DNA from: a virus | Virus record (IMG/VR): IMGVR_UViG_3300025594_000007 | Location: 1 to 62,712 of that record | Direction: 5' to 3' (one strand) | DNA length: 62,712 nucleotides | Part shown: positions 18,026 through 59,668 of the stretch, in pieces | Layout of the letters: each line of letters begins with the position of its first letter | How positions within the stretch are numbered: position 1 is the first letter of the stretch | Notes under the pieces: model-generated | What the model saw: the letters and a program-made list of their open reading frames with translations, nothing else | Told to the model about the DNA's origin: nothing | Database searches by the model: none | Translations under genes and position numbers: made by a program

Positions 18026-18616
18026 ATGGCTTCAATTAATAAATTAAAATCTATCTTTAATAAAAGAGGTCCTGCGCTTGCTAATCGATTTAAACTTGAT
18101 TTTTCAGGAATGGCGACTTTAAGTAATAAATTAGATGCAACAACAGAGGATCTTAGAGAGCTTTCTTATTTAGTTGATTCTGCATTTATGCCTGGGAGAC
18201 AACTGCAAACCTTTGGGTATGACTTGTTTAGACATCCATCTGAAGTTCCAACGGGATATGTTAATGAAGGATTTTCGATTGAGTTTAATATGACAGCCGA
18301 TATGATGCCTAAGCGCGTATTTGATAGTTGGATAAATCTTGTAGTAGATTCTGAATCATACTTAATGAAATATGAAAAAGAGTTTAAATGTAATCTTCAT
18401 ATTATTCAAACCGATATGGAAGATAAGAAATCATATGTGTTAGAACTAGATAAAGTATTCCCAAAAACAATTAGAGGAATTTCATATTCTCAAACTTCAG
18501 CAGACATAACAAAGTTCGGAGTTGAATTTGCATATAATGATATTCGCATATGGGATGAGAAGCGCTATTCTGAAGTTAATAAATTAGCGTGGGATCATGA
18601 TAAAGGTGGTAATTAA
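18026..18616 (+). CDS. Tail-tube-fold protein, probable gp54 tube initiator or gp19-like tube subunit
   Basis: This 196-residue protein ends with a strand pattern shared by gp19/gp54 tube proteins (LDKVFPKTIRGISYS, then FGVEFAYNDIRIW). The N-terminal half carries PSEVPTGYVNEGFSIEFNM. T4 gp54 (320 residues) nucleates the gp19 tube on gp48. The size here suits gp19, but its place among hub-assembly genes suits gp54. No tail sheath gene is adjacent, which favours the gp54 role. Confidence 0.7.
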   Translation: MASINKLKSIFNKRGPALANRFKLDFSGMATLSNKLDATTEDLRELSYLVDSAFMPGRQLQTFGYDLFRHPSEVPTGYVNEGFSIEFNMTADMMPKRVFDSWINLVVDSESYLMKYEKEFKCNLHIIQTDMEDKKSYVLELDKVFPKTIRGISYSQTSADITKFGVEFAYNDIRIWDEKRYSEVNKLAWDHDKGGN

Positions 18617-18634
18617 GCTTTATATATAAATTAT

Positions 18635-19333
18635 ATGAACTTACCAAAAATAACTACTCCAAAATATTCTCTTACCATTCCTTCAAGTGGTAAAAAAATA
18701 GAATTTAGGCCATTCTTAGTTAAAGAAGAAAAGCTATTATTACTTGCTCAGGAATCTAAAAATACTTCAGATGTTTCAAAAGCAATTAACGAAGTTATTG
18801 ATTCTTGTACATTCGGTAAAGGAAATTTAGATGATTTAACTAGTTTTGATGTTGAATATATTTTCCTTAAGTTGCGAGCAAAAAGTGTTGGTGAACTTGC
18901 CGAGGTTTCCGTTAAGTGTAAACATTGCGATACTTCTAATGAAATTGAAATTAATTTAGATGATGTTGAAGTTGTTAAAAAAGAAGAACTTCCTAAAAAA
19001 GTAATGATAACCGATACAATTGGTATTGTTCCACGATATGTTTCTGCTTCAGCGATTAATGCTAATGTAGGAGATGATGTTAACGATATGTTTTCATTTT
19101 ATGTTAGGAGCGTAATTGAAAGCATTTTTGATGAGAATGAAGTATATCCAATTTCTCAAACGAGCAAAGAAGAATTAGATGAGTTTATCGATAGTCTTAA
19201 TCGAGAGCAGATGAGCAAGATTGAAGAGATTATTGAAAATGCGCCCAAACTTGAAAAAGAAGTGACCTTTGATTGTGTTAAGTGTAAAAAGAAAAACACG
19301 TATGTTCTTTCAGGAGCTGAAAGTTTTTTCTAG
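18635..19333 (+). CDS. gp26: Baseplate hub / tail assembly chaperone gp26-like
   Basis: At 232 residues it is close to T4 gp26 (208). The start has RPFLVKEEKLLLLAQES (about 25-41), typical of the family. Two CxxC pairs, Cys95/Cys98 (KCKHC) and Cys214/Cys217 (CVKCKKK), suggest a zinc ribbon. The reading frame ends AGT TTT TTC TAG; T TTT TTC at 19324-19330 is a canonical -1 slippery heptamer in the correct phase, immediately before the stop. The -1 frame continues for 59 codons. The gene directly precedes the tape-measure-like gene, the place of gpG/gpGT-type chaperones in other phages. Confidence 0.85.
   Translation: MNLPKITTPKYSLTIPSSGKKIEFRPFLVKEEKLLLLAQESKNTSDVSKAINEVIDSCTFGKGNLDDLTSFDVEYIFLKLRAKSVGELAEVSVKCKHCDTSNEIEINLDDVEVVKKEELPKKVMITDTIGIVPRYVSASAINANVGDDVNDMFSFYVRSVIESIFDENEVYPISQTSKEELDEFIDSLNREQMSKIEEIIENAPKLEKEVTFDCVKCKKKNTYVLSGAESFF
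19324..19330 (+). promoter_or_regulatory. Candidate -1 ribosomal frameshift heptamer U UUU UUC
   Basis: The heptamer T TTT TTC is in the X XXY YYZ phase of the gp26 frame and is followed at once by the TAG stop. Slippage by -1 gives a fusion to the reading frame ending at 19509. No strong stimulatory stem was seen; only a short CTCATGAG dyad follows. Confidence 0.75.
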
Positions 19334-19509
19334 TATGCCTCTCTCATGAGTCTTTGTTTAATTACTATAAGACAAATTTTGCTTTAATGCAACATCATAA
19401 ATATAGTTTAACAGAGCTTGAGAATATGATGCCGTGGGAGAGGGAGATTTATATTTCTCTATTAATGGAATGGATAAAAGAAGAGAATGAAAGACAAAAA
19501 AATCAATAA
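19330..19509 (+). CDS. Frameshift extension of gp26 (chaperone T-domain-like, gp51 position)
   Basis: In the -1 frame, translation from 19330 gives 59 codons with LSHESLFNYYKTNFALMQHH, then ELENMMPWEREIY and a Lys/Glu/Gln-rich end. The frame has no start codon before an internal Met at 19387, which would remove the apparently structured N-terminal part. It is therefore best read as the C-terminal half of a gp26 fusion of about 291 residues made by -1 frameshifting. T4 places gene 51, a hub assembly catalyst, in this neighbourhood. Confidence 0.72.
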   Translation, partial: LVCLSHESLFNYYKTNFALMQHHKYSLTELENMMPWEREIYISLLMEWIKEENERQKNQ

Positions 19510-27429: not shown

Positions 27430-27455
27430 TAATATAATTTATAATAAAAAAAAGG

Positions 27456-27538
27456 TGGGCAGGGCTGGATTCGAACCAGCGTACTCATACGAGAGCAGAT
27501 TTACAGTCTGCCGCCTTTAACCACTCGGCCACCTACCC
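27456..27538 (-). tRNA. tRNA-Tyr (anticodon GUA)
   Basis: The minus strand folds as a class II tRNA with a 7-bp acceptor stem (GGGTAGG/CCTGCCC with one G-U), anticodon loop CTGTAAA giving GUA, a long variable arm and a T-arm GCTGG-TTCGAAT-CCAGC. The CCA end is not encoded, so host nucleotidyltransferase must add it. Confidence 0.95.
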
Positions 27539-27557: not shown

Positions 27558-27632
27558 TGGCTCCCGAGGTAGGATTCGAACCTACGACCTAGTGATTAAC
27601 AGTCACCCGCTCTACCGCTGAGCTACTCGGGA
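27558..27632 (-). tRNA. tRNA-Asn (anticodon GUU)
   Basis: The minus strand folds into a full cloverleaf with acceptor TCCCGAG/CTCGGGA, D-arm GCTC...GAGC, anticodon loop CTGTTAA giving GUU and T-arm GTAGG-TTCGAAT-CCTAC. CCA is encoded at the 3' end, unlike the other tRNAs here. Confidence 0.96.
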
Positions 27633-31623: not shown

Positions 31624-31631
31624 TTTTAAAG

Positions 31632-31717
31632 TACGGAAGGCGGGAATCGAACCCGCAAGGACGTTACCATCCACCTGAGCTTAAATCAGGCGTGTTTACC
31701 AATTTCACCACTCCCGC
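31632..31717 (-). tRNA. tRNA-Leu (anticodon UAA)
   Basis: A class II cloverleaf on the minus strand with a long variable arm (TGGATGGTAACGTCC), anticodon loop TTTAAGC giving UAA and T-arm GCGGG-TTCGATT-CCCGC. CCA is not encoded. UUA is expected to be a favoured codon in so AT-rich a phage. Confidence 0.95.
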
Positions 31718-59572: not shown

Positions 59573-59594
59573 TATATATCTATTTATTAAAAGG

Positions 59595-59668
59595 TAGGGG
59601 CGGTAGGACTTGAACCTACGGCCAAAGAATTATGAGTTCTCTGCTCTAACCAACTGAGCTACACCCCC
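59595..59668 (-). tRNA. tRNA-Met (anticodon CAU)
   Basis: A full cloverleaf on the minus strand: acceptor GGGGGTG/CGCCCCT with G-U pairs, D-arm GCTC...GAGC, anticodon loop CTCATAA giving CAU and T-arm GTAGG-TTCAAGT-CCTAC. CCA is not encoded. It may be an elongator Met tRNA or an Ile tRNA with a modified C34; the sequence alone does not decide. Confidence 0.92.

Follow-up and report, generated by a model that had tools for sequence, protein, structure and literature searches.

The region considered here is the gene 26 homologue of a T4-like bacterial virus and the sequence that follows it, in a stretch of DNA of 62,712 nucleotides (nt) (IMG/VR record IMGVR_UViG_3300025594_000007, positions 1 to 62,712), which is referred to as the window. 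Two open reading frames (ORFs) are located between the gene of the tail tube protein and the gene that, by its position, encodes the tape measure protein. The second ORF is in the -1 frame and has no ATG of its own before its conserved domain. The first encodes gp26, and its 3' end reads AGT TTT TTC TAG. A preliminary description of this DNA had placed a slippery heptamer in the X_XXY_YYZ phase at this end (T TTT TTC TAG), and both its coordinates and its phase are exact. The -1 frame is open from 19330 to 19506, with its stop codon at 19507-19509, and is translated as LVCLSHESLFNYYKTNFALMQHHKYSLTELENMMPWEREIYISLLMEWIKEENERQKNQ. It had been described as running for 59 codons to 19509 with no start of its own before an internal methionine. 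Indeed, the first ATG of this frame in the window is at 19387, within the conserved domain; in the ORF listing, a TTG at 19354 is the sole other bacterial start codon upstream of it. The features are collected in Table 1.

Table 1. Features at the gene 26 locus and their neighbours (positions in the window; aa, amino acids; SD, Shine-Dalgarno; TAC, tail assembly chaperone; AF2, AlphaFold2)
Feature	Position	Strand	Basis
Homologue of gene 26 encoding TAC-N, the short tail assembly chaperone of 232 aa	18635..19333	+	PF12322, phrog_150, AF2 model
SD-like tract AGGAG, proposed by inference as a 5' stimulator; its end is 7 nt upstream of the heptamer	19312..19316	+	sequence, anti-SD energy tests
Slippery heptamer T_TTT_TTC	19324..19330	+	X_XXY_YYZ phase; T_TTT_TTN in 124/125 unique loci
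Zero-frame stop TAG, directly 3' of the heptamer	19331..19333	+	sequence
-1 frame extension, TAC-C, gp51-family domain, 59 codons and stop, frameshift entry	19330..19509	+	phrog_634, phrog_150, alignment of relatives
Weak candidate 3' RNA hairpin	19353..19376	+	family-wide folding signal clear; window's own element ill-defined
Putative tape measure protein, 676 aa	19535..21565	+	position, length, hydrophobic segments
Tail tube protein family, upstream neighbour	18026..18616	+	phrog_45, E 8e-23

The two reading frames match adjacent parts of one protein family. gp26 was matched to PF12322 with an E-value of 1.9e-59 (201 bits; curated cut-off 24.5) and to phrog_150 with an E-value of 7e-63, covering positions 5-232 of the latter profile. 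The -1 frame was matched to phrog_634, the gp51 family (E 4.1e-29), and also to positions 236-278 of phrog_150, directly beyond the part covered by gp26 and colinear with it. This means that some members of phrog_150 hold both parts in a single frame. T4 gp51 spans positions 13-280 of this profile, whereas T4 gp26 spans only 14-235. Since both T4 proteins match PF12322 and are aligned with each other by hhalign (E 8e-21), they are paralogues; judged from these alignments, the two domains are naturally fused in one frame in T4 gp51, to whose N-terminal part T4 gp26 is paralogous. When a conceptual frameshift fusion of the family was compared with T4 gp51 by hhalign, both domains were aligned with a probability of 99.6 and an E-value of 9.7e-24, and the alignment was gap-free at the junction. 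Genes 26 and 51 of T4 are separate, as the preliminary description had said, and they are also divergently transcribed. gp26 of the window is less than 60% identical to every record in the phages collection, and the virus is an uncultivated, diverged T4-like member.

Relatives of the locus were taken from viral contigs and annotated phages, which gave 125 non-identical loci in 81 clusters at 80% nucleotide identity. They include Vibrio KVP40, Aeromonas CC2, Cronobacter S13, Rhizobium RL2RES, Stenotrophomonas Mendera, Pseudomonas pf16, a Methylophilales phage, and a Prochlorococcus phage. The preliminary description had pointed to the U UUU UUC motif and the -1 frame as features to be sought in the 3' ends of related gp26 genes, and both are conserved to a degree that chance would not explain. 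An in-frame T_TTT_TTN was found within the last 20 gp26 codons in 124 of the 125 loci, mostly one codon (90 loci) or zero codons (27 loci) upstream of the stop codon. The gp51 domain is in the -1 frame in 121 of the 121 loci where tblastn could place it, and an alignment of 17 relatives showed 34-97% identity in this frame. The two frames might also have been separated by an error, an indel introduced into one gp26-gp51 ORF during sequencing or assembly, and T4-type phages do carry both domains in one frame. The same frame relation, however, is present in more than 100 non-identical loci and in complete genomes such as those of P-SSM2 and KVP40; this conservation led to rejection of an indel, the probability of which is negligible.

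A purine-rich tract lies about 7-10 nt upstream of the heptamer, with AGGAG as its SD-like core in the window. The mere presence of an SD 4-mer (106 observed against 103 expected) is uninformative because the E-G dipeptide nearly dictates it; therefore, codon choice and the energy of pairing with the anti-SD were examined. GAG is used in 27 of the 43 E-G dipeptides at the site, compared with 29% elsewhere (p = 3.5e-6). It should be mentioned that the tests of both stimulators were devised post hoc, on related sequences, and with an assumed anti-SD. Compared with synonymous resamplings, pairing with the anti-SD was stronger at the site (mean z -1.01, n=80) than in control segments of the same gene (+0.07; Mann-Whitney p = 4e-12). 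In a scan along the gene, the minimum was reached in 12-nt segments starting 14-23 nt before the heptamer. The window's own z value was -1.2.

The sequence 3' of the site showed a second signal. Here, 60-nt segments fold better than their synonymous recodings, with a mean z of -1.62 to -1.76 near the site against -0.2 to -0.5 in upstream controls (p = 6e-11), and the signal fades beyond 45-60 nt. In the window, the same test gave z values of -1.98 to -2.72 for 60-nt segments whose start lies 15-24 nt downstream of the heptamer's first base. Both this folding signal and the anti-SD signal (the latter in a paired test) persisted at 59 and 36 protein clusters, down to 45% protein identity. The 3' structures vary by lineage. 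In L121 and L129, an 8-bp hairpin, GGGCTCTC-ACAT-GAGAGCCT, is located five bases past the heptamer; it is changed in L136 and L138, and P-SSM2 has a long 3' stem. One conserved 3' hairpin was not seen when single-sequence folds were compared by eye, as the folds differ between lineages. The codon-level signals suggest selection, rather than function, for the 5' SD-like tract and the 3' RNA folding.

The 3' signal also bears on transcriptional slippage, by which mRNAs of altered length made on the T-run would join the two frames. Runs of eight T occur in 13 of the 81 clusters and runs of seven in 10, and these might favor such slippage. The run consists of only six T in 58 of the 81 clusters, including the window, whereas the runs on which transcriptional slippage has been described have about 9 (PMC5009743). 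Furthermore, the loci with six T show equal selection on 3' RNA folding (mean z -1.61, n=56). This selection, together with the conserved phase, fits slippage of the ribosome, and slippage during transcription seems highly improbable.

The structure of gp26 was predicted with AlphaFold2 from an alignment of 40 sequences, with a predicted local distance difference test (pLDDT) score of 88. For residues 1-94 of the model, the best matches among the re-aligned PDB chains were 3fgx (Z 7.9), 2ob9 (Z 7.3), and 3klu (Z 7.2); the next entry had a Z value of 3.4. 2ob9 is the tail assembly chaperone of HK97 and 3klu is YqbN; 3fgx and 3klu are presumably prophage tail chaperones. The agreement of the top three matches, and the fact that they stand well above the rest, support the assignment as a chaperone. 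The model therefore supports a fold shared by the N-terminal domain of gp26 and solved phage tail assembly chaperones. This support comes from the window's gp26 model alone, because TAC structures were not listed in the PDB comparison of the T4-type gp51 model. A search of the PDB with the gp26 sequence profile gave no real match.

The 676-aa ORF downstream is putatively the tape measure protein, on the basis of its position, its length, and its two hydrophobic segments. An ORF at the same position in Ochrobactrum phage OC matches tape-measure PHROGs.

Several observations weigh against frameshifting into a chaperone domain before a tape measure gene. The 676-aa ORF had no profile match to T4 gp29. 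Z values of 7-8 are moderate and within the range that common arrangements can produce; the fold match is therefore supportive, not proof. In the window, the 60-nt fold from 19331 gave a z value of +0.57, so that folding immediately after the slip site is weak. A single unique locus, L054, is without the canonical heptamer: its gp26 ends in GAT CTT TTT ACG TAA, its gp51 keeps its place in the -1 frame, and an ATG lies two bases past the first base of the stop codon. In 12 of the 81 clusters, an ATG is present among the six codons that open the -1 frame. In KVP40, RL2RES, and Mendera, an ATG overlaps the gp26 stop codon, and separate synthesis of TAC-C is therefore possible in these phages.

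The last points lead to the possibility that gp51, or TAC-C, is a separate gene with its own start, where translation would begin through coupling to gp26 or re-initiation at its stop codon. Separate coding sequences are annotated in P-SSM2, KVP40, D527, RL2RES, and Mendera, several of them with an ATG overlapping or just past the stop codon, and SD-like tracts such as that upstream of the gp26 stop can support re-initiation (PMC5009743). However, the first six -1 codons are free of ATG, GTG, and TTG in 63 of the 81 clusters (18 have some start codon there), and the first -1 ATG of the window sits within the conserved domain. A separate gene would also leave unexplained the nearly invariant T_TTT_TTN in phase and the gap-free alignment of the fusion with T4 gp51. 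The anti-SD signal is similar in size in the small subset of loci with no nearby start, with weaker statistics (n=13, p = 0.07; n=18 for loci with no ATG, p = 0.03). An independent gp51 gene is thus unsupported in the window, as it is in most relatives, and we consider it very unlikely. The preliminary description had named two contrary signs, a -1 frame that is unrelated or interrupted by stop codons in relatives and an independent start with its own initiation signal; neither was found in the window, and a minority of the relatives have the nearby ATG codons mentioned above.

The in-phase heptamer, the conserved -1 gp51 domain, the gap-free alignment with T4 gp51, and the predicted chaperone-like fold of the N-terminal domain of gp26 together point to a TAC-N/TAC-NC pair, very probably produced by -1 programmed frameshifting on U_UUU_UUC just before the putative tape measure gene. 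The comparative evidence thus supports the long and short chaperones that the preliminary description had proposed. The slippage itself, its rate, and the roles of the products we infer as follows. Most ribosomes would end at the TAG and release TAC-N. A fraction might slip back by one base on U_UUU_UUC with a pair of tRNA-Phe, reading Phe-Phe in both frames. The slipped ribosomes would then read through the gp51 domain to give TAC-NC (291 aa) as the minor product. The upstream SD-like tract and the downstream RNA folding might stimulate the shift. By analogy with gpG and gpGT of lambda, many copies of TAC-N and a few of TAC-NC might coat the tape measure protein and bring the tail tube subunit to it (PMC5009743).

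Four phage tRNA genes are encoded on the - strand of the window, for Tyr(GTA), Asn(GTT), Leu(TAA), and Met(CAT), at 27454-27538, 27558-27632, 31631-31717, and 59593-59668. The tRNA-Leu(UAA) reads UUA, the codon with which the heptamer ends in many relatives (T_TTT_TTA) but not in the window.

The -1 frame domain has matches in 611 records, and among the matches listed it usually bears a gene name of its own. The domain is annotated as a separate "baseplate hub assembly catalyst" or a hypothetical protein, with a start that is often an internal or an overlapping ATG (for example in L001, L067, L069, and L077); no annotation of it is present in CC2 (L070) or Cronobacter S13 (L078). Since "gp51" is often given as a separate gene, the annotation of many phage records would need correcting. 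In one T4-type gp51 gene (L168:3001-3746), the frame changes in the middle of the N-domain, outside the slip site, which is probably a sequencing or assembly error.

A 2016 review described G-T frameshifting as conserved in long-tailed phages, T4 excepted (PMC5009743). The chaperone genes of T4-like phages were identified by Vladimirov, Gautam, and Davidson in 2022 (Virology 566:9-15, doi 10.1016/j.virol.2021.11.003), as cited in PMC10885494 and PMC12846349. By the account of these citing papers, the family of genes, the logic of TAC-N and TAC-NC, and the -1 slip on polyT are the same as here; in T4-like TAC-N genes, polyT stretches are recognized as -1 signals (PMC12846349), and some T4-like phages have, in place of frameshifting, one short gene and another, longer gene that is a fusion (PMC10885494). 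A similar arrangement was later described in Vandenendeviridae (PMC12846349). Because frameshifting of T4-like chaperones had, by that account, already been described in 2022, the arrangement in the window belongs to a known kind. The link between T4 hub assembly and the chaperone logic of lambda, which the preliminary description had drawn, is therefore not new. A two-sided stimulator signal was not found described in the searched literature, in which the 2022 paper is represented by the papers citing it. The post hoc evidence for two stimulators, each of them exceeding what synonymous codon choice would predict, is possibly new.

The balance leans toward T4-like chaperone sites being three-part recoding signals under selection, composed of an internal SD-like tract, T_TTT_TTN, and a lineage-specific 3' structure. 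This would imply a tuned ratio of TAC-NC to TAC-N, replaced in the T4 lineage by two paralogous genes. The divergent sequence clusters, about 80 in number, are a natural set for testing which stimulators set the ratio of long to short chaperone, and they let one ask why the T4 lineage holds two separate genes. The two T4 proteins, both within PF12322, have the same domains, joined in frame in gp51 and with the N-domain only in gp26; the difference is that these are two divergently transcribed genes with no frameshift. The heptamer of lambda is G_GGA_AAG and differs from T_TTT_TTC in the window. When set against lambda, the T4-like sites show signs, at the level of codons, of an SD-like tract on the 5' side and of RNA folding on the 3' side. 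The long form is rare in lambda, at 30:1 (PMC5009743). The dnaX gene of E. coli has a three-part -1 signal of a 5' SD, a slippery heptamer, and a 3' stem-loop (PMC5009743), like the one proposed for the T4-like sites, whereas the gene itself is unrelated, its heptamer is A_AAA_AAG, and the shift yields the shorter product.
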